This document shows positions 26,259 through 48,742 of a DNA stretch of 48,742 nt, piece by piece. Position 1 is the stretch's first letter. The number at the start of each line of letters is the position of its first letter. The notes beneath the pieces were generated by a model that ran no database searches, was not told the origin of the DNA, and was given only the letters and a program-made list of their open reading frames with translations. The position numbers were made by a program, and so were the translations under genes. This stretch comes from an endosymbiont of Lamellibrachia barhami (GTDB taxonomy: Bacteria > Pseudomonadota > Gammaproteobacteria > Chromatiales > Chromatiaceae): the NCBI RefSeq assembly GCF_011947365.2, contig NZ_JAAVSH020000001.1, positions 1,179,747 through 1,228,488 on the forward strand, in the 5' to 3' direction.

Positions 26259-26270
26259 GAGGCGGAATGT

Positions 26271-26708: not shown

Positions 26709-26715
26709 GGTCGCG

Positions 26716-27177: not shown

Positions 27178-27574
27178 CAGGAAGGTATCGCAAAAAGGCT
27201 TCACTTTGATAGAGGTGCTTGTTGCTTTCGTCATCCTTGCCATGGCGTTGTCCGTACTGTTTCGGATCTTCTCCGGCGGATTGGGAAACATATCCATCGG
27301 CGAGCGATATGCGGGTGCAGTCACACTGGCGGAGACACTACTCGATGAGGCGAATTTGTCGCAATCCGAGATGTCCGGTTCACGCAGTGGATCCCGCGAA
27401 GACGGATACCGTTGGGTCAAGACGGTTCAGGCGTATGAGGTCCTTGACCAGGATGGGAACTCCATACCGGTTGAGAATCTGCAGAAGGTAGAGGTCCAGA
27501 TCACCTGGGAGGCAATGGGCAGGGAGCGCCATATGGTACTTTCAACCCTTCGAGGGGATAGGAGAAAATATTAA
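27155..27574 (+). CDS. gspI: Minor pseudopilin GspI
   Basis: A 137-139 residue minor pseudopilin. From the ATG at 27161 the leader MKAPCDRKVSQKG precedes FTLIEVLVAFVILAMALSVL (cleavage G13/F14, Glu +5). The head domain contains LAETLLDEANLSQSE and VEVQITWEAMGRERHMVLSTLR, features of GspI. A GTG at 27155 is an alternative start. It overlaps gspH by about 17-23 bases. In the family GspI nucleates the tip complex with GspJ and GspK. Confidence 0.88.
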   Translation: MSMKAPCDRKVSQKGFTLIEVLVAFVILAMALSVLFRIFSGGLGNISIGERYAGAVTLAETLLDEANLSQSEMSGSRSGSREDGYRWVKTVQAYEVLDQDGNSIPVENLQKVEVQITWEAMGRERHMVLSTLRGDRRKY

Positions 27575-27623
27575 TCATGCTTGTCAGAATTATAAAGAAT
27601 GCTTTGACGGGGACATAAGTTCA

Positions 27624-28274: not shown

Positions 28275-28322
28275 TTATCGGATATTGAAGATAGTGATTG
28301 CAAAGCGCAGAAGGTACGGATC

Positions 28323-30884: not shown

Positions 30885-31456
30885 GTTTAATGGCTGGCCG
30901 GATCACCACATTGACGATCATGCTGACGCTTACGACGGTAGGATTTGCTGCGTTGTTGCACTATCAATGGAATGGCGGTCAGGCAGGCAGGGCGGGGTTC
31001 TCTGAGCACTTGCAATCGAACGGAGGCGAAGATAGCGATAACAACCGCAAAAACCGTACTCCTTATGCCGCTCTACCAAAGAGTGCCTATCGGGAGGTGC
31101 TGGAACGCCCTCTGTTCACCGAAGGACGTATTCCGCCAGTGATAGAGAAGGCACAGATTATTCCGGTTCAGGATAACCTGGCGCTTAAGCTTGAAGGCGT
31201 CGTTTTTGTAAACGAGCGGCATATCGCCATTGTGCGTGATCACAAGAGCAGAGAGTTGTTGAGACTTCCTGCTGGTGGAGATTACAAGGGATGGCAGGTT
31301 GCCGAGGTAGGCAAGGGGGAAGTCGTTTTGCGCAAAGGAAAAAGAAGTATCACCCTGCTATTGGAGACAAGTGTCAGTACGCCGCTGGGAGCAAGCCGTA
31401 TTTCTCCCAAGCAACTCATGAAAAAACAGAAGATGCCGATCCTTGTTCCCAGATAA
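30881..31456 (+). CDS. GspC/GspN-like periplasmic linker protein
   Basis: A 191-residue protein with one N-terminal membrane helix and a periplasmic part. RPLFTEGRIPP, then LALKLEGVVFVNERHIAIVRDHKSRELLRLPAGGDYKGWQVAEVGKGEVVLRKGKRSITL resembles the homology region of GspC that contacts the secretin N0 domain. No PDZ domain is present, unlike classical GspC, so it may be the short form found in operons lacking a standalone gspC. TTG start overlapping the gspM stop; an ATG at 30890 is an alternative. Function by position and domain resemblance. Confidence 0.65.
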   Translation: MSLMAGRITTLTIMLTLTTVGFAALLHYQWNGGQAGRAGFSEHLQSNGGEDSDNNRKNRTPYAALPKSAYREVLERPLFTEGRIPPVIEKAQIIPVQDNLALKLEGVVFVNERHIAIVRDHKSRELLRLPAGGDYKGWQVAEVGKGEVVLRKGKRSITLLLETSVSTPLGASRISPKQLMKKQKMPILVPR

Positions 31457-31509
31457 TCAAGTGAAGGATTGGATTTTAACAGTGGCGGAAACCGTCTGGA
31501 GTAAACACC

Positions 31510-33273: not shown

Positions 33274-33283
33274 GGTGGGCGAT

Positions 33284-34222
33284 ATGTCATATATATTAAA
33301 CGCTTTGGATCAGGCAGATCGGGAGAGAAACAAAGGTGGTGATGTAGAAAGAACGCCTATGTCCGACAGCCAAAATGCAAACGGCAAGCTGACATGGCTT
33401 CTTGCCGCGATGGGGATGCTGTTACTGAGCGGGATTGCCGCGCTGTTTGCTATTGATGGTACCAATGTACCTGTCCCTGCTGAACAAAGCGGTGAAACTC
33501 AGACGGTTAGGCGTCTGCCGCCTAAAATGGAATCGCCGAAGATACAACTTTCCACACAACAGCGGGGTACCTCTTTGCTGGCATCGATAAAAAGGGGGAG
33601 GCAGCAACAAGAGGTGCCAAGTAAGCCTAATATAATGAGCAGCCAGAAAATAGGTGTGATGGATTTCAACGAGGATAAGGTTGCAAAAAAAAGTGACGTT
33701 CTGACTACGAGTGTTCCGTCGCCGGTAGCACTTGATCGACAAGACAACCCGCCTGATATCTCCACTGATCGGAAAACAGTGGAAGTCAGCGATAGTGTTG
33801 GAGGCGGTGATTCAGACTTCGGGTCAGCGAATCGCTTGAGTCATGGGGTTGGTGAGCCGACCGAGTTGCAGATCCCTGTATCCCCATCTTCCGCACTGCC
33901 GCCACCGGCGATGGTCGAGAATACTGAGCCTCCCGCAGCTGAGATCATGGCCAATAAGTCAGTCAGTGAAATTCCTTTTATCTTTGAATTGCCCTATACA
34001 AAAAGACTGCGGATACCCGATATCACAATCAACGTGCATGTCTACAATTCCAATGCGGACAAACGTTTTGCCATTATCAATATGCGTAAGTATCGGGAGG
34101 GGGATCAGTTGCAGGGCAGCAGCGTAAAGCTGTCCCAGGTGACGCCGCATGGCATCGTTATCGACTATGGGAGTGGTTTGGTGCGGATTGATAAGGGTGT
34201 GGTCTATCGGAAGTCCACTTAG
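33284..34222 (+). CDS. gspB: GspB-type secretin assembly protein
   Basis: A 312-residue protein beginning MSYILNALDQADRERNKG, the standard GspB/ExeB N-terminus, with a membrane helix at about 35-53, a long low-complexity Pro/Ser region and a C-terminal domain (LRIPDITINVHVYNSNADKRFAIINMRKYREGDQL, then VTPHGIVIDYGSG). It is the partner of GspA in secretin assembly. The ATG at 33284 is preferred because AGGGTGG lies just upstream; a GTG at 33275 would add three residues. The TAG stop is formed by the first bases of MITE element C, so the native C-terminus may have been slightly different. Confidence 0.88.
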   Translation: MSYILNALDQADRERNKGGDVERTPMSDSQNANGKLTWLLAAMGMLLLSGIAALFAIDGTNVPVPAEQSGETQTVRRLPPKMESPKIQLSTQQRGTSLLASIKRGRQQQEVPSKPNIMSSQKIGVMDFNEDKVAKKSDVLTTSVPSPVALDRQDNPPDISTDRKTVEVSDSVGGGDSDFGSANRLSHGVGEPTELQIPVSPSSALPPPAMVENTEPPAAEIMANKSVSEIPFIFELPYTKRLRIPDITINVHVYNSNADKRFAIINMRKYREGDQLQGSSVKLSQVTPHGIVIDYGSGLVRIDKGVVYRKST

Positions 34223-34467: not shown

Positions 34468-34690
34468 CGTATTCTCAGCATTCACCATGCCAGAATAGAT
34501 ACGGCAAGAGATTGATTTACCATAACAATTTCTTTCTGTACTTCACCAGATGAAGACGCCACTAATATTGAATATTTCAGGCTCCTGACCACTTGATCCT
34601 GGAGGTCTGACGGACTGCCATTTCTTGCCTAATTCAGGATTTGGGTCCATGTTAAATCCTCTGTCTATTGAAAATCGGATAACTTATGCC

Positions 34691-35350
34691 ATGACGCAAA
34701 TCCTTTTAGTGGAAGATGATGAACTCCTTGGTGACGGTATTAGTAAGGTTCTCTCTCGGCGGGGTGATCAGCTGGAATGGGTTCGTGATGGACGCTCTGC
34801 GCTCACTGCGATATCGGAGAGGGAGCCGGATCTGGTGCTGCTCGATATCAATCTTCCCGATATCTCAGGCTTCGACGTTCTGAAAGCCATTCGGTCAGCG
34901 GAAAATGATGTGCCGATACTGGTTCTTACCGCTCGTAGTAGCGTCTCCAACCGGGTGTTTGCACTCGACAACGGTGCTGACGACTACCTGGTAAAACCTT
35001 TTGATATCGAGGAGTTGTGTGCCCGTGTCCGTGCGCTGCGACGCCGCTCTGCCAGTCAGAACGAAGGTCGGTTGCGTTGCGGAGAACTGGTGATGGATAC
35101 ATTGGCGCTGACTTTGTCTTTGGCGGGTGAACCCGTCAATCTATCGATACGGGAGTTTACCTTGCTGCGGACGCTTATGGAGAACCGTGGGAGAGTAATG
35201 TCGCGTCATCAGTTGGAAGAGGAACTCTATGGATGGGATGTAGAGGTGGCGAGTAACACCATCGAAGTCCATGTTCACAACCTTCGCAAGAAGTTGACCA
35301 GCTGCATTATTCGTACGGTGCGTGGCGTCGGCTACATTATCGAAAAATGA
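34691..35350 (+). CDS. OmpR/QseB-type response regulator
   Basis: A 219-residue regulator from the ATG at 34691 (MTQILLVEDD). Receiver residues are intact: acidic Glu8-Asp10, phospho-acceptor Asp52 in LVLLDINLPD, VLTARSS and the Lys in DDYLVKPFD. The winged helix DNA-binding domain covers about 125-219 (LSIREFTLLRTLMENRGRVMSRHQLEEELY, NTIEVHVHNLRKKL, IRTVRGVGYII), the QseB/PmrA type. The frame is open further upstream to 34625, but that extension looks unlike the family. Four-base overlap with the kinase gene. A CTTAAG-N5-CTTAAG site downstream at 36733 is a plausible target. Confidence 0.93.
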   Translation: MTQILLVEDDELLGDGISKVLSRRGDQLEWVRDGRSALTAISEREPDLVLLDINLPDISGFDVLKAIRSAENDVPILVLTARSSVSNRVFALDNGADDYLVKPFDIEELCARVRALRRRSASQNEGRLRCGELVMDTLALTLSLAGEPVNLSIREFTLLRTLMENRGRVMSRHQLEEELYGWDVEVASNTIEVHVHNLRKKLTSCIIRTVRGVGYIIEK

Positions 35351-36693
35351 AACAATCTTTACGATTTCGTCTGCTCTTCTTTGTCCTGACCAGTTTTATC
35401 ATTGGTTGGTTGACGATTTCCGGGTTTACCTGGTGGCGCGCTACGGCTGAGGCTGATGCCCTGTTTGATGAACAGCTTTTTCAACTTGCCACCTTGCTGG
35501 CTGTTGTGACTTCACATGAGGCGGAAGAGCAGGATCTCGACGAGTTTGCGGAGGATCTGCAGGTAAATGGTTATAGCGATCCGCCAGTGTTCCAGGTGTG
35601 GTCCTCCGATGGCCTACTGCTGGTACACGGCCCAAATGCCCCCAGACAACCCTTATCACTCAATCTCGAAACTGGGTACAGCAATGTGGTGATGAGAGGG
35701 CATCAATGGCGTGTTTATACTCGTTATACAAGTGATAAAAAACATCGAATCCAGGTGGCGCAGGAGAGCGCCAGTCGGGAAGTCAGAATGCTCGGTTTTG
35801 TTGTGAATATCTTATCCCCCTTGCTGCTGGCGCTACCGATGATTGGGATACTTTGGTGGGTTGTCGTACGGGCATTGAATCCCTTGGATAGGCTGGTTCA
35901 TCAAATTGGCGCGCGTAGTGCCACCAATCTTGAAGCAATCGACACTACGATAGCGCCGGCTGAAGCGAAGGTGTTGGTGGATGCTATCAACGATCTGTTC
36001 CAGAAGCTGCAATCTTCCATCAACCGCTACAACCAGTTTACCGCCGATGCCGCCCATGAACTACGAACCCCACTCGCGGGTTCGGTCGTTCAAATCCATG
36101 CGGCACTTGAAAGCAGCGATGAAAGTGAACGGAAACATTCGTTGAATCAGGCATTGAAAGGTCTGTCAAAACTCCATCGTCTGGTGGAGCAGTTGCTGGT
36201 GTTCTCTCGCATGGAGCCGGAAGTGGCGATGTTGGAGTTTGCCCCCCTGGATTTGAAGGAGCTGTCGGTTGAGGTAGTATCGGAATGTGCTCCTGGCTAC
36301 CTTGAAAGGGACGTTACCCTGGAACTGGAGGCTCCACATCCGGTAAAACTCAAGGGTAATTGGGAGTTGCTTGCCGTTGCCTTGCGAAATCTATTGGATA
36401 ATGCGGTCCGGGTTACCCCTGCTGGCGGAGTGATCAAGGTTAGTCTTCTGGCCGATGATGATTTTGTCTCCCTTGTGGTAATCGATGCCGGGCCGGGTAT
36501 TACGGACCAGAACAAGGCATTGGTTTTCGGGCGGTTTCACCGCCTCCTTGGGACCATTGGTCAGGGGAGTGGCCTTGGCTTGTCGATCGTTCACAGTGCG
36601 GTGCGACTGCATGGTGGCACAGTCATGTTGGAAGATGGTGAAGATGGAAAAGGTCTCCGGGTTGTGATTAAAATTCCTATTGGAAACGCCTAG
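35347..36693 (+). CDS. QseC-type sensor histidine kinase
   Basis: A 448-residue membrane kinase: TM1 at about 8-30, a periplasmic sensor of about 115 residues (2CSK_N-like, FDEQLFQLATLLAVV), TM2 at about 153-174, HAMP-like linker, HisKA domain with FTADAAHELRTPLAG (His237), and an ATPase domain with LRNLLDNAVRVTP, DAGPGI and GQGSGLGLSIV. All catalytic boxes are present, unlike in the kinase at 18826. It should phosphorylate the regulator encoded just upstream. The sensed signal is unknown; QseC-like kinases respond to varied signals including metals. Confidence 0.93.
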   Translation: MKQSLRFRLLFFVLTSFIIGWLTISGFTWWRATAEADALFDEQLFQLATLLAVVTSHEAEEQDLDEFAEDLQVNGYSDPPVFQVWSSDGLLLVHGPNAPRQPLSLNLETGYSNVVMRGHQWRVYTRYTSDKKHRIQVAQESASREVRMLGFVVNILSPLLLALPMIGILWWVVVRALNPLDRLVHQIGARSATNLEAIDTTIAPAEAKVLVDAINDLFQKLQSSINRYNQFTADAAHELRTPLAGSVVQIHAALESSDESERKHSLNQALKGLSKLHRLVEQLLVFSRMEPEVAMLEFAPLDLKELSVEVVSECAPGYLERDVTLELEAPHPVKLKGNWELLAVALRNLLDNAVRVTPAGGVIKVSLLADDDFVSLVVIDAGPGITDQNKALVFGRFHRLLGTIGQGSGLGLSIVHSAVRLHGGTVMLEDGEDGKGLRVVIKIPIGNA

Positions 36694-36834: not shown

Positions 36835-39420
36835 ATGTTTACTGACTACGTGCGAGTTCTAATTAGCGCCGGAGTTGTCTTGTGTATTTCACTACCGGGG
36901 ATCTCCTCGGCAGGTAGTGACAGATTCAAAATCGAGGAAGCCAAATGGGATAGTGAAAAATCCCGCCTGAAGGTAAAAGGCAAAGGCATGGAGGACAAAA
37001 CAGTCACCCTGATGTATGCATTCGACCAGACCGTGATCAACAGCAAGACTATCGATGACGACGAATGGAAATTCAAAGAGTACGATCTGGCGGTGGTTCC
37101 CTGCAGTGTGCGGGCTGTTCAATCAGATGGGAAGGTTGCCGAGAAACGCGTCAAACACGCCCCCGCTGATTGCGATACGGGTGATACTGGTGGCGGAACG
37201 CCTCCTCCTGTTGTGATACCTCCACCGGTTGGGACGGAGGTCTCGATCAACTCCACCAGCCAGAATGGAACTCCCGGCATTCCGGTAGCCGAACAGCCCT
37301 TGGTCAATCAGGCTGGCTACAAGATCTTCGCCATCAATGATCTGGGAATGCACTGTGGCGACCTGGATACCCGTGTATCCAGTATTCTGCCTCCCTTCAA
37401 CGTACTGCATGCAACAGTTATCCAACAAGGCAATGACCCAAAGGTCATGCTGCCTGCTGATGGCGTTAGTGTGGTCTATTCGGCAGCTTCAAACCCGTTT
37501 GATCCTATCCTTAGCGGTATTAACTCAGCCGGTTCAGGTCCTGTATCTTCCAGCATGCTGCCTGATGGCAGTGTATTTAAAACCAACTTCTGGGACGGCG
37601 CGCGAGCGGCTTACGATGCCTTCTACCCATCGGGGATCCTGCCGGCCTTCTATCCGCCAGGCGCCAACATCCTGGATTTGGGTCTGCCCATGCCGAACGT
37701 GGAGCAGCTCTATCTGGGTGACGGAAACCTGACTGCGGATCAACAGTCCATGTCCGGTCGCCATGCACCTTATACGGACAACCTCACCGAGCTGTTCGAA
37801 GCCTTTGTGATAGATCAACCCTTCTTTACCAACCCAGCGTTTAAATTTGGTTATGTAAAGGAGGGGGTGAACTGGTATGAAGCGCCAGGCATACCTATGA
37901 CCGCCTATGATGATTTTGGCCGTGAGAATCCCTGGCCACTGCTTCGGGTTCAGGCGATCGATGCAGGCGGAACCGTTCTGGCATCCAACGACACGGTTGT
38001 TCCAATCTCCGGTGAGGCCAATTGCGGCATCTGCCACAACGCGCAGGTCGATGGCGGCAACGGTGAAGCCACAAAAAATCTCGTTGGTGAACCGGTCACA
38101 GTGCTCGACGATCCACTACTGGATGAAGTCCCCCTGGATGTCAGCCTGGAGTATGCCGCAGATCTCAACCTTGTACGTCTGCATGACCAGAAACATGGCA
38201 CCGACCTGGAGAACTCCCAGCCGGTGGTCTGCCAAACTTGCCACTACACTCCGGCACTTGATCTGGCACAGTTGGGTCCGCTGGGACCTGAGAATGACGG
38301 ACCACTCGTACTCAACGGCGTACACATATCGGATTCCCTGGCCAACGGACGTGATCAGATCAAACACAAATCCATGTCTAATGTGATGCACAGCCACCAT
38401 GGTAGCGTTACCGATGCCAACGGCGACAAACTGTTCCCCGATATGCCGCCAGCCATCAAGAACGATCTTGGCATAGTCGAGAACTTCCAACAGCGCCGGG
38501 ATGCCCTGGAAGCTACCTGTTACCAGTGTCACCCTGGCCGACGCACCGACTGCCTGCGCGGTGCCATGTCCAATGGCGGCATGCTCTGTCAGGACTGCCA
38601 CGGCAACATGGAACAGGTGGGTAATGACTTCACCCGAGGTGTCTCTCCCGCTACACCGGGTGAGTTCGAGTTGGGTGGTGGTTTCTATAAGACACCGGAG
38701 CTGACTGCAGATGTTGTAGGCAAAAACCAGCCACGTGTTCCCTGGGCCAACGAACCCGGTTGCGGCTCCTGCCATACCGGCGATGCCATGGATAGTCTGT
38801 CAGGTGCTGCCGGCACGGTGGTCAACAATGTTGATGCCGATGCGAATGTGGACGGTATCCGTCTGTTCCAGGCCTTCCGCAGCGACGACACCAAAGCCAC
38901 CCCGATTGTTCCCAGCAACAAGCGATTTGCTGAGAATGTGATCGAGGCGAACAATCCCGCAGTGTCTGGGCCTGATGATCCCCGTATCGGTAACCCGATG
39001 CTTTACCGGGTCAGCACCGGCCACGAAGGTATCTTCTGCGAAGCCTGCCACGGCGCCACTCATGGTATCTGGCCGAACAAGAATCCAGATGCCAACGACA
39101 ATGTCGCCGCCGTTCAGTTGCAGGGACACACCGGCACCATCTCTGAATGCAGCACCTGCCACACGGGTGATTTGGGCAACACTCTGGAAGGTCCTCATGG
39201 CATGCACCCGGTTGGAGATACTTCGTTCTCTGATGGCGGACATGAGGACATGGCCGAGAACAATCCCGATGCCTGCCGTGCCTGTCATGGTGTGAACGGC
39301 GAGGGAACGGTACTCGCCCGCGCAGCGACAGACCGCACCCTGTCCAACGAGGGCAAGTCGATCACACTCACCAAAGGAGAGCCGGTGACCTGTACGCACT
39401 GCCATGAAAATGAACTGTAA
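36835..39420 (+). CDS. Secreted nine-heme c-type cytochrome
   Basis: An 861-residue exported protein. From the ATG at 36835 (GGGGAA upstream) a signal peptide MFTDYVRVLISAGVVLCISL ends near GISSAG; the frame is open back to 36769 but that start would lie at the predicted transcription start. An Ig-like beta domain (about 25-110), a Pro-rich linker (GGGTPPPVVIPPPVG) and a segment with NDLGMHCGDLDTR and LPPFNVLHATV follow. Nine CxxCH heme sites come next at about residues 397, 466, 562, 585, 643, 735, 772, 814 and 853. The protein should carry electrons in the periplasm or at the cell surface. No membrane segment is seen. It heads the redox cluster and is followed by a terminator at 39457. Confidence 0.9.
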   Translation: MFTDYVRVLISAGVVLCISLPGISSAGSDRFKIEEAKWDSEKSRLKVKGKGMEDKTVTLMYAFDQTVINSKTIDDDEWKFKEYDLAVVPCSVRAVQSDGKVAEKRVKHAPADCDTGDTGGGTPPPVVIPPPVGTEVSINSTSQNGTPGIPVAEQPLVNQAGYKIFAINDLGMHCGDLDTRVSSILPPFNVLHATVIQQGNDPKVMLPADGVSVVYSAASNPFDPILSGINSAGSGPVSSSMLPDGSVFKTNFWDGARAAYDAFYPSGILPAFYPPGANILDLGLPMPNVEQLYLGDGNLTADQQSMSGRHAPYTDNLTELFEAFVIDQPFFTNPAFKFGYVKEGVNWYEAPGIPMTAYDDFGRENPWPLLRVQAIDAGGTVLASNDTVVPISGEANCGICHNAQVDGGNGEATKNLVGEPVTVLDDPLLDEVPLDVSLEYAADLNLVRLHDQKHGTDLENSQPVVCQTCHYTPALDLAQLGPLGPENDGPLVLNGVHISDSLANGRDQIKHKSMSNVMHSHHGSVTDANGDKLFPDMPPAIKNDLGIVENFQQRRDALEATCYQCHPGRRTDCLRGAMSNGGMLCQDCHGNMEQVGNDFTRGVSPATPGEFELGGGFYKTPELTADVVGKNQPRVPWANEPGCGSCHTGDAMDSLSGAAGTVVNNVDADANVDGIRLFQAFRSDDTKATPIVPSNKRFAENVIEANNPAVSGPDDPRIGNPMLYRVSTGHEGIFCEACHGATHGIWPNKNPDANDNVAAVQLQGHTGTISECSTCHTGDLGNTLEGPHGMHPVGDTSFSDGGHEDMAENNPDACRACHGVNGEGTVLARAATDRTLSNEGKSITLTKGEPVTCTHCHENEL

Positions 39421-39456
39421 TAAATAAACAGTTTCTCCAAACCTATCCCCTTTACC

Positions 39457-39485
39457 CGCGCTGCTTTGCACGCGGGTTTTTCTTT
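39457..39485 (+). terminator. Rho-independent terminator after the cytochrome gene
   Basis: ACCCGCG at 39457-39463 pairs with CGCGGGT at 39474-39480, extended by an inner TGC/GCA pair around a TTT loop, and is followed by TTTTTCTTT. It closes the cytochrome transcript and makes an independent promoter for the next gene likely. Confidence 0.8.
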
Positions 39486-39875
39486 GGGCGCTGTTTTTTT
39501 TGTTAAAGTTCTCAGCCCTCCTGCCGTTATAGAAATAGTGGACTTTTGCCAATACCCGCACTTCTATCGATTCGACCCTACCACTCAAAGCTCCTGTTTT
39601 TATTGGGGTTTGGAGTGGAGGACTGTATTCCCTTCCGCCTATACCCCAGTAACAGGGTAGGGGTTCACCTGCCTACCACCTGCATTTTTTCCTGCTTTTA
39701 ACTGGGGCATTACGCCGCCTGTCATTTCTTAGTTCTGCCGGTAGCCACCGGGACTCGATCAGCCTAAATTTTCCATCGTAGTCAAACAAATTTCTTTTTT
39801 TACGGGAAATGCGTCGTTACGGCGTGGGGAATGATCCTGCTTTCAGGGTCTTTCATAGCTCGGAGAGTGAAAGTT
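39486..39875. other. Long leader region before the giant gene
   Basis: About 390 bases without a gene. An imperfect hairpin is seen around 39580-39620 (CCACTC with GAGTGG) and a smaller GGTAGG/CCTACC pair around 39655-39680. A promoter for the next gene must lie here; none stands out. Confidence 0.45.
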
Positions 39876-42800
39876 ATGAACAAAAAAATGAGAAAAGGCA
39901 AAACAGGGGTTTTTAACTTCGCCATTGCCTTGTCTATGTTGGCCGTTTCGGCGGCCCATTCAGGGCAAGTCACACTAAATGTGCAGGATCAAAACGGAGC
40001 CCCTGTGAATGGCTTCCGTTGGTTGATTCAGGAAGATACAACCTACACGGTAACGCCTGATGTCAGTACTGGCGATATGCTCTCGCTGGGCTTTCATCGC
40101 AGTAACCATCCACCAGCGATCAATTCGGTGACTGGTGCGGGGTTGAGCGGTTACACTGACACCGCCCAGGCCGTGGTTGCGGATGTTGAGGACAATAAGA
40201 GCTATTATATCTCTGTCCTTCCGTTCTCCGGACACAGCCTCTCAGGTGGTTCAGTCGCTATTGATGCCACAGGCACGGATCAGCAGACCGTCACTGTTAC
40301 GGTTCAGCAGCAGCCGATTCCCACCGCGCAGATTTCGTTCTATCTTTTCCACGACCACTACCCGGTCAACGGCAACCCCGATCTGCCCCAGGAGATTAAT
40401 CCTCCGCTAGGGAATGCGGGCCATGTGGACTGGAGCGGCTTCTCGCTCTTCCTGGAAGAGCCAGCCGGTAAGTATGGTCAAAATGGCGGTCAGCTCATCC
40501 AGGATGCATTCGCTAACCCGTTGGGTACGACCTATGATCGGACCTGCGATATCAACGGGAACCCGGATCTCAATCCGCTGACCAACTTTGTCTGCATGAC
40601 GGGTGGCGCACCTGTGGTGGCTACGCTGGGTGACGGTACCATGCACCCCGATCAGGACGGCTTCCTCACGGTGAAGAATCTGGCGCCGGGCAAGTACGGC
40701 ACCATCCTGATTCCGCCAACTGGATCCAATTGGCAGCAGACCACCACCATTGAGGGCACCAAGGTTATCGACGCCTGGGTCAAGGCCAACGAGCCGCCGC
40801 TGTTCGTTGAATTTGGTCTGCCTGGTCCGCATGTCTTCGTGGGTTTTACCAAGGCGAGCAGTGAGTACGTGATAGGGCAAGCGGGTGGGTTCCCACCCCT
40901 GCAGCCGCCGCTACCTGGTGAACAGACCGCAAATATCATAGGTAAGGTGACTGATCAGCACATGTCACGTCCGCCTAATTTCACCTTTTTTAGTGGGCGC
41001 GATTTTCCGGCCTGCTGGGTGGCTTTGAACAGCATGGTTAACGGCGCTTTGGGCAAAGGTCTTTATGCTGCCCCCTGTGCTGCGGATTCAACCTTTGCGA
41101 TTCCTAATCTCGCGCCGGGCAGCTACCAGCTTGCGATATGGGACGCCAATATGACGGTGGTATTCGCCCAGACGGCGTTTTCTGTCGATACGACCGGTGG
41201 TACCTGTAACGGTGGTCTATCCTGTAATTTTGGTGATGTCTCCGTCTTCAACTGGTTTGGCCGTCTGAACACCGCTGTCTTCAGCGATTCCGATCAGGAT
41301 GGTTTCTGGGATGCGAATGAGGCGGGCATCGGCCCTGAGAGTCAGAGTGTCACCATCCGCTGGCGCGACGGCACCGTCTATCAGAGCTTCCCCACAGACA
41401 ACGGTGGCGAGGCGCCTTTCGATACGGTCTTCCCCTTCTTCCACTGGTTGGTGGCTGAAGCGAGTTTCACCAACAAGAAGGCGACCGGTGCCACCTTCGT
41501 GGTCGACGCCGGTGGTGCGGTCCTGCCCGATAATGGCTGGACCTACCCCTCCTTCGATCAACTCACTCCACAGACACAGTGTGCGGCCGGCGTCAGCTAT
41601 GATCCTGTCAGCGGTACCTGTCCTGCAGGGAGCGAAGAAAATAATCCGAATACCGGTAACAACCTTTCCCGTACCGAGACGGGTGTAGTGCTGACCCAGG
41701 CCTTCCAGCAATTTCTGGGTCAGACCAGCGTGATGCAGTTCGGCAAGGCCGACTACAAAACTTTTGAGTTCCCGAGCATTGCGAACGGCTTCACCACGAC
41801 TTTCGTGGGTGAAAACGGCGGCATCTCCGGTATGGTGCACTACGCGGTCACCCGCGCTGAGAATGATCCCCGGTTTACCGCTGTAGAGACCTGGGAGCCC
41901 GGTATTCCCCGGGTTCAGTTGAACCTCTACGCTGATGGCGACATCGACTGTTTTCCGTTGAATAATTTTCCTGCTGATTCTTGCGATATCGACTGGAATG
42001 GCGACGGTGTATTCGATGCAGACGACAACGTAATCGATGACGTTAATATGAACGGCCTGGTCGATCTGGCGGATGCAGACAACTATCCCCAGGGTAACTT
42101 CCCCGGTCCCGAGGACATCGACCGGAATGGCAATTCCACATTCGACCTGGGCGATGCGCTCAATGTGGGCTACTCCGACAGTTGGGATGACAGCCTGCCT
42201 ACAGGTTGCCAGGGTGAGTCGTTCACTTTCTTTACGGACCCGGCAGACCCGGCCACCGCTACGACCCCCGACTGCTACGATGGTCTGCGCAATTTTAACC
42301 AGATCCGTCCCGGTGTGTTTGACGGTGGTTGGGCCTTCGAAGGATATGACAATGGCTCTTTGCCGGTTGCAATCCAGACCAAGCTCAACGCCTTCTATGC
42401 CACTCCGGCTGTTGCCTCGGTTGGCTTCACAGGCATGCTGCCCGGTGACTATATCGTGGAGGCGAATACCCCTGCAGGTTATAAGCTCGTAAAGGAGGAG
42501 GATCGCAACATCGACTTTGGCGAAGTGTTCGTGCCTTCTGAACAGGCATTGGCAGTCACCTGTGTGGGCGACGATCATCTGGTACCGCAACACTTCTCCA
42601 TGCTGACCAAGGATGGCAGTGGTGATACGGCAATGTTGATCGATCCTGCAGTGAACGATCCGGCACCGTTTGCGGGTACGACGCGTCCGCTCTGCGATCG
42701 CAAGAAGATAGCACTCTCTTCCGGTCAGAATGCGGCTACCGAGTTTCATCTGTTCACCGATGTGCCGATCGCGGCCAACATCTCCGGTATGATTCTCAAC

Positions 42801-43004
42801 GATCTGGCCAACGAGTTCGATCGAAAGATACCGAACTTCGGCGAAGTTTACGCCGCCGTGGACGCCTGTCGCTTTCTACGGCTGGAACGGTGCTCCAGGT
42901 TAATCGGGTCTATGCCGATCAGTTTGAGGTCGCTATATGACCTGGTGGTTTCCCTCCACCTTCAGCGCCAATCTGCCGCAGCCCAGCAGTATGTCACCCA
43001 ATAA
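39876..43004 (+). CDS. Giant secreted repeat protein, 5' part (frame broken)
   Basis: From the ATG at 39876 (GGAGAG eight bases upstream) a signal peptide (MNKKMRKGKTGVFNFAIALS) is cut near AAHSGQ. Beta-rich repeats follow: SdrD_B/CNA_B-like units (LTVKNLAPGKYGTILIPP, FAIPNLAPGSYQLAIWD, GMLPGDYIVEANTPAGYKL). EF-hand-like calcium motifs appear as DSDQDGFWDANEAG, DWNGDGVFDADD, NMNGLVDLADAD and DRNGNSTFDLGDA (the last three at about residues 704-766). The frame is normal up to about 42845, where indels in the first copy of a 1.1 kb tandem repeat shift it. The last 50 residues are therefore not native, and the true protein most likely continues at 43501 into the ORF ending at 46836. Confidence 0.85.
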   Translation: MNKKMRKGKTGVFNFAIALSMLAVSAAHSGQVTLNVQDQNGAPVNGFRWLIQEDTTYTVTPDVSTGDMLSLGFHRSNHPPAINSVTGAGLSGYTDTAQAVVADVEDNKSYYISVLPFSGHSLSGGSVAIDATGTDQQTVTVTVQQQPIPTAQISFYLFHDHYPVNGNPDLPQEINPPLGNAGHVDWSGFSLFLEEPAGKYGQNGGQLIQDAFANPLGTTYDRTCDINGNPDLNPLTNFVCMTGGAPVVATLGDGTMHPDQDGFLTVKNLAPGKYGTILIPPTGSNWQQTTTIEGTKVIDAWVKANEPPLFVEFGLPGPHVFVGFTKASSEYVIGQAGGFPPLQPPLPGEQTANIIGKVTDQHMSRPPNFTFFSGRDFPACWVALNSMVNGALGKGLYAAPCAADSTFAIPNLAPGSYQLAIWDANMTVVFAQTAFSVDTTGGTCNGGLSCNFGDVSVFNWFGRLNTAVFSDSDQDGFWDANEAGIGPESQSVTIRWRDGTVYQSFPTDNGGEAPFDTVFPFFHWLVAEASFTNKKATGATFVVDAGGAVLPDNGWTYPSFDQLTPQTQCAAGVSYDPVSGTCPAGSEENNPNTGNNLSRTETGVVLTQAFQQFLGQTSVMQFGKADYKTFEFPSIANGFTTTFVGENGGISGMVHYAVTRAENDPRFTAVETWEPGIPRVQLNLYADGDIDCFPLNNFPADSCDIDWNGDGVFDADDNVIDDVNMNGLVDLADADNYPQGNFPGPEDIDRNGNSTFDLGDALNVGYSDSWDDSLPTGCQGESFTFFTDPADPATATTPDCYDGLRNFNQIRPGVFDGGWAFEGYDNGSLPVAIQTKLNAFYATPAVASVGFTGMLPGDYIVEANTPAGYKLVKEEDRNIDFGEVFVPSEQALAVTCVGDDHLVPQHFSMLTKDGSGDTAMLIDPAVNDPAPFAGTTRPLCDRKKIALSSGQNAATEFHLFTDVPIAANISGMILNDLANEFDRKIPNFGEVYAAVDACRFLRLERCSRLIGSMPISLRSLYDLVVSLHLQRQSAAAQQYVTQ

Positions 43005-44601
43005 CATGTGACCGCATGCATGAACGATGCGGGACCTGTGCCGAATCCGCTCATCGGTACGGTGAATCTGTCGGCAGTGATATCACTGGTACTCGGGCAG
43101 ACCATCACTGCGGGCGACGTACCTGCAAGGGTGATCGATCCCTACTTCGATCCCCAGTACAGCCAGTTCTGTTACACCTTCCAGTACATACCCAGGTTCA
43201 ACGACCTACCACCAGATACGCCGGTATTGCCTGTAGCCCGCATTCGCCAGCCCCGGCAAGTTCCACTTTGGATTACAGAGTCCTGATCTCACGCCGACGG
43301 TTGCGTCGGTCGGGCGGCATCTGGGTGATGGTGGTGGTGGTCCCCTTGTCGGATCGGACGATCATCATCAAATCGATGGGCGGATGTTGGTGCCAAATCC
43401 CGGTGGGACAGTACTGGCAACATTCGAAAAACATCGAGCGTGACTACGGGTTTGGTGCAGGACAGGGCGGGGTCTTCCTACTGGAAGATGACGGTATCTC
43501 TATGCCACTCCGGCTGTTGCCTCGGTTGGCTTCACAGGCATGCTGCCCGGTGACTATATCGTGGAGGCGAATACCCCTGCAGGTTATAAGCTCGTAAAGG
43601 AGGAGGACCGCAACGTCGACTTTGGCGATGTGTTCGTGCCTTCTGAACAGGCATTGGCAGTTACCTGCGTGGGTGACGATCATCTGGTACCGCCTCACTT
43701 CTCCATGCTGACCAAGGATGGCAGTGGTGATACGGCAATGCTGATCGATCCTGCAGTGAACGATCCGGCACCGTTTGCGGGTACGACGCGTCCGCTCTGC
43801 GATCGCAAGAAGATAGCGCTCTCATCCGGTCAGAATGCGGCTACCGAGTTTCATCTGTTCACCGATGTGCCGATCGTGGCCAACATCTCCGGTATGATTC
43901 TCAACGACCTGGCCAACGAGTTCGATCCGAATGCACCGAACTTCGGCGAGAAGTTTGCACCGCCGTGGACGCCTGTCGCTTTCTACGACTGGAACGGCAC
44001 TCAGGTTAATCGGGTCTATGCCGATCAGTTTGGTCGCTATGACCTGGTGGTTCCCTCCACCTTCAGCGCCAATCTGCCGCAGCCCAGCGGTATGTCACCC
44101 AATATGCTGACCGCATGCATGAACGATGCGGGACCTGTGCCGAATCCGCTCATCGGTACGGTAGATGTCAGCGGTGATATCACTGGTGTTCCAGGGCAGA
44201 CCATCACTGCGGGCGACGTGCCTGCAGAGGTGATTGATCCCTACTTCGATCCCCAGTACAGCCAGTTCTGTTACACCTTCCAGTACATGCCAGGTTCAAC
44301 GACCTACCTGGATACGCCGGTATTGCCTGTAGCCGCATTCGCCGGCCCCGGCAAGTTCCCGCTGGATTGTAAGAGTCCTGATCTCACGCCGACAGTTGCG
44401 TCGGTCAGGCGGCATCTGGGTGATGGTGGTGGTGGTCCCTTTGCACTGGCGGATCAGACGATCATCATCAAATCGATGGGCAGGATGTTGGTGCCAAATC
44501 CCGATTGGGACGGTACTGGCAACATTCCGAAAAACATCGAGCGTGACTACCGGTTTGGTGCAGGCCAGGGCAGAGTCTTCCTGGAAGATGACGCTGGTAT
44601 C
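42396..44601 (+). repeat. 1.1 kb tandem duplication inside the giant gene
   Basis: Copy 1 is 42396-43500 and copy 2 is 43501 to about 44601; both start TATGCCACTCCGGCTGTTGC and run to GAAGATGACG. The first 400 bases differ mainly by synonymous substitutions; the rest of copy 1 has many one- to five-base indels, while copy 2 is intact. Codon phase at 42395/43501 matches, so deleting copy 1 restores a single frame. Confidence 0.9.
43005..43500 (+). pseudogene. Degenerate remainder of duplicated copy 1
   Basis: This stretch is the indel-ridden second half of copy 1. Broken frames such as 43008-43286 (MTACMNDAGPVPNPLIGTV) correspond to residues 187 onward of the intact copy in the ORF at 43540 (LTACMNDAGPVPNPLIGTVD). 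It should not be annotated as separate genes. Confidence 0.8.
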
Positions 44602-46836
44602 CGTACCGAACTGACGGTTGGCCTCTGGAGACAAAACCGGATCGAAGCCGATGTCACAGCGACAGATCCACTGGTCGCAATCCCATTCGGTGCCTACCAG
44701 GTTGTTGTGGTCGGTATGGACGGTACTGAGTCGCCTATCGGGGTAACCCTTACGGTTGGTATCGAAGAGGGCTGGGGTGCACGCAACAACTGGACCCTGG
44801 GTAAATGGACCGATGCTGGCACCAACTACACCAAGCGGCTCAAATACGCCTATGAGGTGCGCTCAGTTGATCCCTTGGCTGTAGCCGGTCCGCTGGTTCA
44901 TAACACCATTCAGGATGCAATCGATGCAGCAAACCGCGGGGATCTGATCCTGGTCACTCCTGGTGTCTACGACGAGATGGTGATGATGTGGAAGCCCGTC
45001 AAACTCCAGGGTTGGGGTGCTGGAGACGTGGTTATCAACGCCCGCCAGGTGCCGACCGAGAAGATCATCGATTGGCGCACCCGGGCCAAGGCTTTGGTCG
45101 ACAATGGTTTTATCGATTCATTGCCTGGGCAGATCGTTGCCAACCTTCCATTCGCAGCACTGGCGGAGAATGTCTTCCCAACCAGTGAGGGTGCAGGCAT
45201 ATTCGTTGCCGGCCTGGCGTCTTCGGCTACTTGCCTGGAGGATACTGACAGGCTGGCCTTCTGCCATAACCGCAATAAAGGCTCTCGCGTCGATGGCTTC
45301 ACCATCGTTGGCGCCAGTAGCGGTGGTTCCATTGTGGTCAACGGGCATGCCGGTTTCATGGATGTGAGCAACAATCGGATCACCGCCAACTCTGGTTTCT
45401 TCGGTGGAGGAATCCGCATCGGCCATCCTCAACTGAGTCACGAGATCGTCAGTGTGAACGACCCAGCCTATACAGGTTTGGCCAATGCTGATATTGGTGA
45501 CTTCGTCTACGATGATGCCCACAACGATGATATCCGTGTTCACCACAACCAGATCTCTACCAATGGTGGGTTTGGCGGCGCGGGTGGCGGTGTCTCCCTG
45601 AATACAGGTGCCGATAACTATCGAGTCCAGAAGAACTGGATCTGCGGCAACTTCACGCAGGGTGACGGCGGCGGTATCGGCCACCTGGGTTTTTCTGAAA
45701 ATGGTTTGATCGAGGATAACGATATTCTCTTCAATGAGTCGTTTGCCCAGTCCGGTCCCAGGACTGGTGGCGGCATCGCCATCCTCGGCCAGGCGGCACT
45801 TGTGCCTGAGACCTTCACCGGTGAGCTTCTCACCCCCGGTACCGGCAATGTTACTGTGGATTCCAACCGGATTCGCGGCAACCTGGCTGGTGCAGGTGAC
45901 GGCGGTGGTATCGGTGTGGCCCTGGTCAACGGTCATGATGTGGCGCGCTTCCCAGACCGTAAAGGCAAGTGGAGTCAGGTGCGGATCTACAACAACATGA
46001 TCGCCAACAACGTGGCCGGTGCTGCAGGTGGTGGTATCTCACTGCAGGACGTGTTGAAGGCCGACATTCGTGCCAATACTGTTGCTAATAACGACAGCAC
46101 CGCGACTGCGGCGATCCTGAGCTTCATGCCTGGAAACGTCAATGAGTCCGTTCCGATGCCGGCAGGTATCGTTTCGCGGATCCACAGCACGGAGTTGGCC
46201 AATGTGATGAGCGGCCATGTGGACCCGCTGGTACTTCCCGGTGGTGCAACCAGTGATTGGCTCACCTTTTCAGACGCCAAGTTGAAAAACAACATCGTCC
46301 ATCACAACCGCTCGTTCTACTGGCTGAACCAGGATCCTGTAGCAACCCCGCTGACGAACTTCGGAATCTTCCCCGCATCCTGCGCTGATCCTGCAGCAGG
46401 GGGAGCTGGTTGCGACGTGGCCAACGTGGATCTCTACAGCGTTGATCTGGGAGTGCTCGATGGTCTGGTTACCCGTCTCGATCTGCAGTTGGAGCCTAAG
46501 AACTCACTGCTGACCGATACCGCGGGTTATGCCACCACCAATGTCATGGGTGATCCTGCCTTCGTGATGGGGTATGTCAACATTGCCCGAGACCAAACCC
46601 TGGTGTTTCAGGAGACGACGGTTCTCCAGGTAGCAGGTGCCTTCGATGAGGGTGGCAACTGGCTGCAGGTGAGCTACGGGCCACTGACGATATCTGCGGG
46701 TGACTACCATATCACCCCGGCGTCGGTGGGTGTCGACAACGGTGCCAATGTACCGCTCCAACTGGAGCTCGACTTCGACAATGAGCCTCGACCAGATGGA
46801 GGAAACAACGATATAGGTGCGGACGAACTGCAGTAG
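43540..46836 (+). CDS. Giant secreted repeat protein, 3' part with beta-helix
   Basis: The frame is open from 43501 and the ATG at 43540 is internal, with no ribosome binding site, so this is the continuation of the gene starting at 39876. It carries an SdrD_B-like unit (GDYIVEANTPAGYKL), further beta domains, and from about residue 450 a right-handed parallel beta-helix. The helix opens with HNTIQDAIDAANRGDLILVTPGVYDE, followed by GGGIRIG, GGGVSLNTGADN, GGGIGHLGFSENGLIEDNDI and GGGISLQDVLKADIRANTV. The C-terminus FDNEPRPDGGNNDIGADELQ is a common end of exported beta-helix proteins. Joined to the 5' part the product would be about 1951 residues. Likely cell-surface or matrix scaffold; substrate binding is unproven. 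Confidence 0.85.
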   Translation: MLPGDYIVEANTPAGYKLVKEEDRNVDFGDVFVPSEQALAVTCVGDDHLVPPHFSMLTKDGSGDTAMLIDPAVNDPAPFAGTTRPLCDRKKIALSSGQNAATEFHLFTDVPIVANISGMILNDLANEFDPNAPNFGEKFAPPWTPVAFYDWNGTQVNRVYADQFGRYDLVVPSTFSANLPQPSGMSPNMLTACMNDAGPVPNPLIGTVDVSGDITGVPGQTITAGDVPAEVIDPYFDPQYSQFCYTFQYMPGSTTYLDTPVLPVAAFAGPGKFPLDCKSPDLTPTVASVRRHLGDGGGGPFALADQTIIIKSMGRMLVPNPDWDGTGNIPKNIERDYRFGAGQGRVFLEDDAGIRTELTVGLWRQNRIEADVTATDPLVAIPFGAYQVVVVGMDGTESPIGVTLTVGIEEGWGARNNWTLGKWTDAGTNYTKRLKYAYEVRSVDPLAVAGPLVHNTIQDAIDAANRGDLILVTPGVYDEMVMMWKPVKLQGWGAGDVVINARQVPTEKIIDWRTRAKALVDNGFIDSLPGQIVANLPFAALAENVFPTSEGAGIFVAGLASSATCLEDTDRLAFCHNRNKGSRVDGFTIVGASSGGSIVVNGHAGFMDVSNNRITANSGFFGGGIRIGHPQLSHEIVSVNDPAYTGLANADIGDFVYDDAHNDDIRVHHNQISTNGGFGGAGGGVSLNTGADNYRVQKNWICGNFTQGDGGGIGHLGFSENGLIEDNDILFNESFAQSGPRTGGGIAILGQAALVPETFTGELLTPGTGNVTVDSNRIRGNLAGAGDGGGIGVALVNGHDVARFPDRKGKWSQVRIYNNMIANNVAGAAGGGISLQDVLKADIRANTVANNDSTATAAILSFMPGNVNESVPMPAGIVSRIHSTELANVMSGHVDPLVLPGGATSDWLTFSDAKLKNNIVHHNRSFYWLNQDPVATPLTNFGIFPASCADPAAGGAGCDVANVDLYSVDLGVLDGLVTRLDLQLEPKNSLLTDTAGYATTNVMGDPAFVMGYVNIARDQTLVFQETTVLQVAGAFDEGGNWLQVSYGPLTISAGDYHITPASVGVDNGANVPLQLELDFDNEPRPDGGNNDIGADELQ

Positions 46837-46845
46837 TTAACGCTT

Positions 46846-46871
46846 CCGTGGCCCTCGCATGAGGGTCACGG
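46846..46871 (+). terminator. Intercistronic stem-loop
   Basis: CCGTGGCCCTC at 46846-46856 pairs with GAGGGTCACGG at 46861-46871 with one G-T pair and a GCAT loop. No T-run follows, so it may be a partial terminator or a transcript-stabilising hairpin between the giant gene and the oxidase gene. Confidence 0.5.
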
Positions 46872-46932
46872 ATACGTGAAAAAGCAATTCGAAATAACAA
46901 TGGCAGTTACATATTCATAAGGAGTAACGCCG

Positions 46933-48246
46933 ATGAAAATCTTCAAAATAAAATTGCTGCCCGCGGCCCTATTGTTGGCTTTGTCAGGTGGCGTGGGAAC
47001 AGTTAACGCAGCGGTATTCGTACAGTGTCCTGGGGACGATAACGGAAACGCTGTATGGGACGAGGGGGAGGTCCAACCCTCCGAGAACATCAAGTGTATG
47101 CATCTGATCGCTGGTGACAGCTTTGCCGTAATGTCGGATGACAATCCTCTTTATATCTTTGGTTATGGTGATCAGACTGGTACCCCGCCATCGGAAGTGA
47201 TCAAGGAGGGTATCCTCGATGCGGAGTGGCCTGGTCCCACCGTAGAACTTGAGCAGAATGACGAGTTCTATCTCTCGTTGACCAATGTTGGTACGGTGAT
47301 TCGCCCCGACCTGTTTGATAGCCATACCATCCACTTTCATGGCTTTCCCAATGCTGCGACGGTGTTTGATGGGGTACCGGAGGTATCGGTCTCCGTCAAT
47401 ATGGGCGCCACGTTGACCTACTACTATAACGTGGTGGAGCCTGGCACCTATATCTATCACTGTCATGTGGAGGCAACCGAGCACATGAAGATGGGCATGT
47501 TGGCCAATCTCTATGTACATCCTGTTCAGGATGTGACGGGATGTCCCGATGGTTCCTGCGCGGTGGCTACACGTAAGGGCGGTACCGATCCGGGTGCGCC
47601 CACGGGTTATACCTACAATGACGGCGATGGTACCACCGCCTGGGACGTTGAACAGCCGCTCCAGGTGTCTGCTTTCGACAGCGAGTTCCACGATGCCAGT
47701 CTCTTTGTACAGCCGCTGCCCTTTGCAGCGATCGAGGGCGACTATCCGCAGATCAACGGCCGCGGTTACCCCGATACGATAAATCCTGGGATTATGCCGC
47801 CACCAACGGATAACTGGAACTCGATAGTCGGCCCGGATGGTGAGATTCATCCTGCGGGTAAGGTTACCGGTAATCCAGGTGAGACACTCAACAATGATAC
47901 ACCGGTTCAGTTAGTGTCCTCCAACGCGACCGTAACCGCAGGTCAGACCCTGCTGCTACGGCTCTCCAATGTGGGTCTCGACCGCTTCTATACCCTGACC
48001 GCACCCGGATTGACGATGAAGATTGTCGGTACCGGTGCGCGGCATATGCGTAACGCAGCGGGAGATAAGAACCTCTACCGCGAGGTTGCCTCGGTCAACT
48101 TCGGTGGTGGTGAGACCCACGATGTGTTGGTTGATACCACTGGCGTGGCGCCGGGCACCTACTTTCTTCATGCCGCAGAACTGCATCAGTTGAGCAACGT
48201 GACCCAGTTGGACGGCGGAATGATGACTGAGATTGTCGTGCAATAG
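46933..48246 (+). CDS. Exported multicopper oxidase-like protein
   Basis: A 437-residue protein with a strong AAGGAG site eight bases before the ATG and a signal peptide (MKIFKIKLLPAALLLALSGG, cut near VNAA). An EF-hand-like DDNGNAVWDEGE follows. The first cupredoxin domain contains SHTIHFHGFPN (His134, His136) and YIYHCHVEATEHMKMGM (His176, Cys177, His178, His184, Met187 or Met189), so it has type 1 ligands plus one set of type 2/3 histidines. The second domain (VTAGQTLLLRLSNVG, then GTYFLHAAELHQL) lacks an HxH pair or Cys, so a complete trinuclear site is not visible in this chain alone. It may pair with the protein encoded next, or work as a one-electron copper protein. Substrate could be a metal ion or an organic compound. 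Confidence 0.85.
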   Translation: MKIFKIKLLPAALLLALSGGVGTVNAAVFVQCPGDDNGNAVWDEGEVQPSENIKCMHLIAGDSFAVMSDDNPLYIFGYGDQTGTPPSEVIKEGILDAEWPGPTVELEQNDEFYLSLTNVGTVIRPDLFDSHTIHFHGFPNAATVFDGVPEVSVSVNMGATLTYYYNVVEPGTYIYHCHVEATEHMKMGMLANLYVHPVQDVTGCPDGSCAVATRKGGTDPGAPTGYTYNDGDGTTAWDVEQPLQVSAFDSEFHDASLFVQPLPFAAIEGDYPQINGRGYPDTINPGIMPPPTDNWNSIVGPDGEIHPAGKVTGNPGETLNNDTPVQLVSSNATVTAGQTLLLRLSNVGLDRFYTLTAPGLTMKIVGTGARHMRNAAGDKNLYREVASVNFGGGETHDVLVDTTGVAPGTYFLHAAELHQLSNVTQLDGGMMTEIVVQ

Positions 48247-48282
48247 CGTCAAGCCGGAAGACGATCAAAGGAGATAAGCAAA

Positions 48283-48710
48283 ATGATAAAGACAAGACAA
48301 AAAACCGTCCGCCTGCTCAGCATGCTACTGCTGGGTATGGTGATGACGACGATCGTGTCCCAGGCCATGGCTGCGGGTCACGACATTCGGGGAATCAAAC
48401 CTCAGGGGGGTACTACCTTTAATCTCTATGCCTTTCCCTTCAACATGAATCTGCCAGATGGCTCCAGCATGTATATGTGGGGCTTCGGAGACATGAATGG
48501 AGGGGCCAATGCCAGCCATCCGGGTGGTAACGGTTACAGCCTGCCACAATATCCGGCGCCGACCCTGATCGTGAATGAGGGCGACACCATCACTATCAAT
48601 GTGACCAACTTCGGTGTTGCTGAGCCGGTCTCGATGGTGATTGCCGGACACAAAGCCAATGCGGTGGGTGGTACCCCTGGACTGGTGATCCGTCAGGCCG
48701 GGCTCACGAG
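48283..48710 (+). CDS. Second cupredoxin/multicopper oxidase-like protein, cut by contig end
   Basis: Begins 36 bases after the previous gene with AAAGGAGATAAGC before the ATG. Signal peptide (KTVRLLSMLLLGMVMTT, cut near AMA), then a cupredoxin first domain: MYMWGFGDMNG, YPAPTLIVNEGDTITINVTNFG and SMVIAGHKANAVGG. At the place where the upstream protein has HTIHFHG, this one has VSMVIAGH, so the first HxH pair is not conserved. The genomic sequence ends at the adapter (48711), so later copper motifs cannot be judged; the apparent stop at 48721-48723 is adapter sequence. Probably co-transcribed with, and a paralogue of, the oxidase gene upstream. Confidence 0.75.
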
Positions 48711-48742
48711 AGCAATTACGTAACTGAACGAAGTACAACAAA
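48711..48742 (-). other. Untrimmed Nanopore adapter (reverse complement)
   Basis: The last 32 bases are the inverted counterpart of bases 1-30 (AATTACGTAACTGAACGAAG core), matching the adapter's lower strand with one inserted base. Not genomic; it falsely extends and stops the last reading frame. Confidence 0.9.

Follow-up and report, generated by a model that had tools for sequence, protein, structure and literature searches.

The Locus

The window analyzed here is a stretch of 48,742 nucleotides from the genome of an endosymbiont of Lamellibrachia barhami (contig NZ_JAAVSH020000001.1; G000:C1:1179747-1228488), and this study concerns the genes for exported proteins that occupy its right-hand end. 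Four frame groups lie there on the plus strand: a nine-heme cytochrome, a giant scaffold in two open parts, a multicopper oxidase paralogue (ox1), and the start of a second one (ox2). Past the window end, in a stretch of the same genome whose positions are prefixed L003, come the intact ox2, a third cupredoxin-cadherin gene (ox3), and a gene for a small protein.

36835..39420, plus strand: exported nine-heme cytochrome with an NDLGMHC segment, an occasional neighbor (open reading frame, Pfam, orthologue comparison)
39876..43004, plus strand: giant scaffold, N-terminal open part; start placed by comparison with the congener G001, signal-peptide-like start, frame lost inside the repeat
42394..43498, plus strand: degraded first copy of a 1.1-kb tandem repeat; breaks the giant gene, probably an assembly artefact
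43499..44603, plus strand: second copy of the 1.1-kb repeat, gap-free against congeners
43540..46836, plus strand: giant scaffold, C-terminal open part; a beta-sandwich-like region, then a predicted right-handed beta-helix
46933..48246, plus strand: ox1, exported two-domain multicopper oxidase paralogue; domain 1 with a type-1 site and half of the trinuclear-cluster-type ligands
48283..48723, plus strand: ox2 stub, 146 amino acids, before a run of Ns (open reading frame, Pfam); the intact copy lies beyond the run
L003:1176-2603: intact ox2, 475 amino acids; the other half of the trinuclear-cluster-type ligands
L003:2619-5303: ox3, cupredoxin-cadherin protein, 894 amino acids
L003:5354-6061: small protein, 235 amino acids, with a long N-terminal helix; the gene after ox3

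A Conserved Block of Scaffold and Copper Proteins

A scan of the genome collection with an alignment of ox1 gave 246 relatives, the best 80 of which were kept as loci. Two ox1 motifs, EHM[EQK]MGM and PDLFD[PS]HT, served as peptide patterns for fetching these loci, and their genes were counted with profiles built from relatives of the window proteins. Ox1 was found in all 80 loci, the giant and ox2 in 79 each, and ox3 in 72; the small protein followed with 59, a MofC-like cytochrome with 32, and the nine-heme cytochrome with 5. The scaffold and the three copper protein genes are present together in 71 of the 80 loci, and in all 71 they keep one order and one strand; eight of the nine incomplete loci run to a contig end before the missing gene. 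The carriers include Thiodiazotropha, Thiobacillus, Methylocaldum, Nitrospirae, Desulfobulbaceae and other Desulfo- groups, Acidobacteria, Bdellovibrionales, Phycisphaerales, and others. Ox1 is rare, with two matches at 1e-30, its own genome counted, in a draw of 397 Pseudomonadota genomes.

Gene fusions were observed as well. The giant and ox1 share one frame in L114, L119, L129, and L144, where no signal peptide is seen in the stretch before the ox1 part. In Cupriavidus metallidurans CH34 (L169) and a Paraburkholderia (L170) the order is ox1, ox2, a fusion of ox3 and giant, and then the small protein; the fused frame, of 2708-2744 amino acids, has the ox3 part first and the giant part after. 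Fusions in both directions thus tie the scaffold to the oxidases. An apparent fusion of giant and ox3 in L142 was not counted, as it comes from a frame ahead of ox1 whose match is probably due to cadherin-like repeats. The C. metallidurans CH34 copy sits on a 2.58-Mb megaplasmid, at a place where the plasmid table lists no gene.

The block is a real, conserved system, broader than the window showed, and the nine-heme cytochrome is no constant member of it. The sequence-only reading had proposed that cytochrome, giant protein, and two copper oxidases form one machine, to be checked by their co-occurrence. For the scaffold and the oxidases the proposal is borne out by the synteny, by the fusions, and by complementary copper sites (below); for the cytochrome, beside the block in 5 of the 80 loci, it is not. 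A chimeric assembly of two halves, raised as a possible origin of the gene order, is excluded: the same order recurs in all five congeners and elsewhere.

Copper-Ligand Motifs Divided between Two Paralogues

The ox1 frame is intact and ends 36 bases ahead of the ox2 start, and AAGGAG stands ahead of both starts. Of the pair of cupredoxin proteins first described at this place, the second is a stub in the window. Ox1 scores over the Pfam cut-offs for Cu-oxidase, Cu-oxidase_2, and Cu-oxidase_3, and intact ox2 for the last two, with Cu-oxidase under; the stub also holds a Cu-oxidase domain match. Only cadherin and Big_9 domains are found in the ox3 of this genome, and Cu-oxidase_3 is found in addition in those of L075 and L130. 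The paralogy of ox1, ox2, and ox3 is supported by hhalign probabilities of 99.8, 99.2, and 100%. One set of alignments held the window or L003 row plus 16 rows for each protein, and a further ox1 alignment held that row plus 44. Against PDB, ox1 has the two-domain oxidases 3g5w first and 2zwn second. Ox2 has 2zwn first and 3g5w second in its larger alignment (A5), and ascorbate oxidase on top in the smaller one (A2); for ox3, 3g5w comes second and 2zwn fifth, with a nitrite-reductase-type protein ahead.

The available passages of a recent study describe two-domain oxidases as trimers in which each trinuclear cluster is coordinated by two protomers; in type C enzymes it is the N-terminal domain that holds the type-1 site (PMC13151041, 2026). 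Ox1 has this type C layout, with two domains and the type-1 motif in the N-terminal one when aligned to 3g5w. Its first domain bears HT[IV]HFHG and HCHVEATEHMxMGM, that is, a whole type-1 copper motif and four trinuclear-cluster-type histidines. The second domain of ox2 bears HPFHFHG and WHSH, with the remaining four histidines of that type. These motifs coincide with the copper motifs of 3g5w and 2zwn, enzymes that likewise have two cupredoxin domains with a type-1-type motif in the first and HxHG/HxH motifs in the second. Yet ox1 is without the domain-2 HxH set and ox2 without the type-1 cysteine, so that, unlike in the homotrimeric type C enzymes, the ligands do not lie in one polypeptide type. 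Ox3 has no such ligand set, the HCH and HxHG positions being lost in its alignment to 3g5w.

To follow the ligands across taxa, we used rows from the 80 loci plus L169 and L170 (L167 and L168 excluded), which after coverage filters came to 82 for ox1, 77 for ox2, 70 for ox3, and 71 for the giant; the tally covered those columns in which the L082 residue is H, C, or M. The ox1 ligand set is complete in 82 of 82 rows and that of ox2 is kept in 76 of 77, the exception, L138, being cut by a contig end. Jointly, ox1 and ox2 hold the type-1 site (Cys and two His) and eight trinuclear-cluster histidines in 76 of 77 loci, and neither holds them alone. In the simplest reading, the two proteins would build one complete site. 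By their cupredoxin domains and joint ligand set they can be placed in the multicopper oxidase superfamily, and the pair may be predicted to bind copper and reduce O2.

The same division could be taken the other way. With neither protein holding a full trinuclear set, and with the block occurring in largely anaerobic lineages, ox1 could be a separate blue-copper electron carrier and ox2 and ox3 structural cupredoxins, with no O2 reduction at all. We regard this as quite improbable, for the trinuclear-type histidines are invariant in both ox1 and ox2, which separate functions would not demand.

The Scaffold and the State of Its Gene

Two open frames, 39831-43004 and 43540-46836, represent the giant gene in the window, position 43540 being a resumption of the frame and no true gene start. 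An imperfect 1.1-kb tandem copy (42394-43498 against 43499-44603) splits the frame. Alignment of the first repeat copy to each of four congeners takes 19 gap openings; that of the second takes none. The giant is a single frame of 1916-1970 amino acids in three of the five congeners (G001, G004, and G005) and is split also in the other two (G002 and G003). The secreted protein of roughly 1950 residues seen from the sequence alone is two frames in the window. At the other break, the ox2 stub frame stops right before a run of 312 Ns just past the window (L003:490-801), on either side of which 783 bases are duplicated at 96% (window part 47925-48706). More N runs lie downstream, at L003:11890, 12968, and 14263.

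Both the tandem copy and the repeat flanking the N run are probable local assembly artefacts, judging from these patterns. The split frames of G002 and G003 (assemblies of about 20 and 210 contigs) could instead be read together with those of the window as real damage, the broken scaffold and truncated ox2 marking a locus in decay in this symbiont. Such decay appears distinctly unlikely: the gaps are confined to the first repeat copy, a like repeat flanks the N run, and three congeners are intact, one of them as a single contig.

What the giant protein is made of was in part correctly named at the outset, as SdrD-like, EF-hand-like, and beta-helix parts. SdrD_B is barely over its cut-off in the window (30.0 bits against 29.7) and under it in the intact G005 orthologue (24.7 bits), and an fn3_3 match in the N-terminal part stays under the Pfam cut-off. 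Pfam reports no EF-hand in the giant, although D-x-[DN]-x-[DN]-G loops are present in its sequence. The C-terminal part was modeled with AlphaFold (mean predicted local distance difference test score, pLDDT, 71.4), and Foldseek returned seven right-handed beta-helix enzyme matches for the model, at E values of 2e-5 to 8e-4 and with low TM-scores, including GH87, PL6, and pectin methylesterase. A right-handed beta-helix is thus supported for this part at the level of predicted structure. The scaffold alignment took in 25 of 32 prepared giant rows. A literature search for combinations of SdrD, beta-helix, and NosD found nothing.

The best structural matches of the scaffold being polysaccharide-active enzymes, and small two-domain laccases being among the structural relatives of ox1 and ox2, the copper proteins might oxidize organic compounds (phenolics, matrix polymers, or host-derived material) in a laccase-like manner, with the beta-helix binding polymer. 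We consider this unlikely. The published change in abundance of a comparable cluster is on magnetite (PMC12016527, in the passages available), and many relatives are named as metal- or sulfur-cycling groups, a raw tally made with no background comparison.

The Nine-Heme Cytochrome as a Separate Module

The cytochrome frame (36769-39420, 883 amino acids) has a start at 36835 that agrees with the frame start of the G005 orthologue. Its nine CxxCH motifs, at residues 419-875 of the 883, and the NDLGMHC segment, kept in all six rows of the alignment, confirm the original description of a nonaheme protein. Cytochrome_C7 is found in it by Pfam; Mtrc-MtrF_II-IV, the domain of the MtrC/MtrF outer-membrane cytochromes, reaches 27.6 bits, under the cut-off of 30.

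An extracellular electron-transfer machine in which this cytochrome relays electrons between the copper proteins and the cell would find encouragement in the weak likeness to MtrC/MtrF domains II and IV, and in gene position: the cytochrome lies directly ahead of the scaffold in the window and in all five congeners. Its distribution speaks against such a machine, which we hold to be improbable. The five adjoining loci belong to the window's genus and to one Thiobacillus metagenome-assembled genome (L103, upstream of the scaffold). Among 45 block-carrying genomes outside the genus, searched out of 46 drawn from the 80 loci with tubeworm symbionts excluded, a full-length relative (>800 bits) is found in 6, and in 34 no relative matches at 1e-20. 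Conversely, 8 of 55 relatives have the cytochrome with no scaffold and no strong ox1 match; three of these eight have weak matches of a general oxidase type, and genome completeness is only 82-88% in three. In one relative, G015, the cytochrome stands beside a two-component system like that of the window, with no scaffold or oxidase adjacent. A constant partnership is rejected on the adjacency counts, the wider genome search, and the cytochrome-only relatives; on gene content, the cytochrome forms a module of its own, linked with the block in this genus.

The symbiont's own genome has a second relative of the cytochrome (G000:C1:2528510-2530669, L021), with 60% identity over query residues 144-883 and a further piece nearby. 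Other many-heme frames stand at the left edge of block loci (L118:3-2588 with 38 CxxCH, L124:2-1771 with 27), and 12-heme frames occur in L135 and L159.

Comparison with Known Systems

The closest published counterpart is the cluster Slit_1812-1818 of Sideroxydans lithotrophicus ES-1, whose products reached a higher abundance in late magnetite cultures than in cultures on Fe(II)-citrate (PMC12016527, 2025). According to the passages available, this cluster encodes three cupredoxin proteins, SCO1, and a cytochrome. Two of the proteins have canonical motifs; the third, a larger one, contains domains resembling adhesins and polysaccharide lyases. Paraburkholderia, Ralstonia, Anaeromyxobacter, and Steroidobacteraceae are reported there to have similar clusters. 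Among the matches listed, the tags Slit_1816-1818 appear in this paper only. An earlier account states that the cluster is not homologous to MofA/OmpB (PMC5566968, 2017, likewise seen in part).

The block shares with the Sideroxydans cluster, as the available text of both papers presents it, three tandem exported cupredoxin proteins, the third without canonical motifs, and a mofC-like cytochrome gene (PMC5566968; PMC12016527); the layout was compared with the published text only. The two differ in that the third Sideroxydans protein is described as one large chain, whereas the window's genome has one gene for the scaffold and another for ox3, that for the scaffold leading. A SCO1 gene and a magnetite response are, moreover, reported for the Sideroxydans cluster. 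By analogy with the Paraburkholderia locus, a fusion of ox3 and giant would explain the large third Sideroxydans protein.

The passages available on that cluster mention neither a separate conserved scaffold gene nor fusions nor a divided copper site. The initial remark that no named system of this composition is known agrees with the literature covered, in which we found no name for the system as a whole, but the type has been noted twice in Sideroxydans within the passages available (PMC5566968; PMC12016527). No paper among the matches listed has both two-domain multicopper oxidase and heterotrimer as terms.

The MofC-like cytochromes in the block loci combine Cytochrom_C with Peripla_BP_6 in L130, the latter under its cut-off; in L140 Peripla_BP_6 is over it. 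OmpB/OmpC of Geobacter and MofA of Leptothrix resemble the block in that they are exported, belong to the multicopper proteins, and have a gene for a MofC-like cytochrome close by. Unlike it, they are single large chains. No OmpB-like long chain, that is, no frame above 555 amino acids, was found among the matches listed from two genomes of the G471 genus, both of which have strong ox1 matches. Ceruloplasmin-type oxidases have six cupredoxin domains, with the copper site between the first and the last; they are one chain, against three genes here, and serve as an analogy only. The two-domain oxidases 3g5w and 2zwn differ in being trimers, those of type B homotrimers, whereas here two paralogues divide the ligands, a third is without them, and a giant scaffold is attached.

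A Candidate Multi-Chain Copper Oxidase

We judge it reasonably probable, from sequence comparison, that the block encodes an exported, surface-bound copper oxidase of several chains, split over paralogues and carried on a scaffold. Ox1, ox2, and ox3, paralogues of one another and related to the trimeric two-domain multicopper oxidases, would have divided the labor and would assemble into a hetero-oligomer whose simplest form is a ring like that of the homotrimers. One catalytic site would lie at the interface of ox1 and ox2, with ox3 as the third, non-catalytic member. The giant beta-helix protein would hold the ring and anchor it outside the cell, with the small anchored protein as a helper that is joined in many taxa by the MofC-like cytochrome c. 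The least certain steps are the electron donor and acceptor: the type-1 copper would take electrons from an extracellular reductant, for which Fe(II), Fe(II) bound in minerals, or Mn(II) are the likeliest candidates, and O2 would receive them from the trinuclear cluster. A metal substrate is suggested tentatively, as somewhat short of probable.

Several observations weigh against this interpretation. Histidines outside the proposed site are kept equally well (ox1 H259 in 82 of 82 rows, ox2 H218 in 77 of 77), and ox3 retains a Met in all 70 of its rows and a His in 58 of them; conservation alone is therefore no proof of copper binding. The invariance of ox1 H131, H184, M187, and M189 is partly a product of selection, because the motifs that hold them served as search patterns for the loci; ox1 H134, H136, H176, C177, and H178 and the ox2 ligands lie outside those patterns and are free of it. 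In L120 the giant is not matched in the 1.4 kb upstream of ox1, before the contig begins. Of the 80 loci, 21 gave no match to the small protein, 5 of them with more than 2.6 kb after ox3. The SCO1-type motif, looked for with a crude pattern and no profile search, is in none of the 80 loci, unlike in the Sideroxydans cluster. The likeness to ES-1 itself rests on that paper's Paraburkholderia and Ralstonia comparison together with the Cupriavidus and Paraburkholderia loci. Finally, some relatives are named as Desulfobulbaceae, Desulfosarcina, and Desulfopila. These lineages are largely anaerobic, and an O2-reducing enzyme there needs explaining.

If the proposal of a multi-chain copper oxidase is true, sulfur oxidizers, animal symbionts, and relatives named as iron-, methane-, and sulfate-cycling bacteria have in common a multi-protein extracellular copper oxidase, a specific and testable candidate for the extracellular oxidation of metals, in minerals or in solution, with O2 as the oxidant. 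In its fullest form, which is possible and about which we lean slightly to doubt, a four-copper site would be built across two proteins of a three-protein ring, mounted on a beta-helix outside the cell and exported as a set, in several phyla. At the level of genes it would be an intermediate between homotrimeric two-domain and single-chain six-domain oxidases, and would, if true, open a route from the former to the latter via copper sites divided among paralogues. The analysis also corrects the sequence-only reading, in which the cytochrome seemed indispensable and two interrupted genes passed for intact ones.

The Small Protein and Neighboring Genes

The small protein is modeled as a helix followed by a beta-rich domain (mean pLDDT 80.8), for which Foldseek gave no match at E 0.001 or better. 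In its alignment, to which 29 of 51 rows were added, several relatives can be read as having lipobox-like N-termini.

Upstream of the cytochrome lie two further groups of genes:

20931..34222, plus strand: type II secretion operon (GspD, E, F, pseudopilins, GspK/L, GspA/ExeA, GspB-like), seen as open reading frames; context, possible exporter
34625..36693, plus strand: OmpR-type response regulator (34625-35350) and sensor kinase (35347-36693), QseBC-like (Pfam, NCBIfam)

The secretion gene names are putative assignments made by reading the sequences. Similar frames precede the block in G005 too, and GspD-, GspE-, GspF-, or GspL-like frames lie inside the fetched stretch in 10 of the 80 loci, where GspE and GspF matches could equally be parts of a type IV pilus. 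OmpB is reportedly secreted by a type II system, going by the title of a cited paper. From this gene context, export of the block proteins by the neighboring system is plausible. The NCBIfam scores of the QseBC-like pair are under the equivalog cut-offs.

Downstream of the block there is a giant Calx-beta repeat protein, a frame of 5262 amino acids in G005 (L066:94-15882) that is fragmented in the window's genome (L003 from 6426). Subtilase (S8) proteases occur near the block in three taxa (L075:5399-6973, L130:14966-17590, and L066:17682-19994) and are possibly processing proteases; the one in G025 also bears a MopE-type copper-binding motif. In the Paraburkholderia locus, a frame after the block (L170:23725-24528) has a LolA-like match just under the Pfam cut-off.

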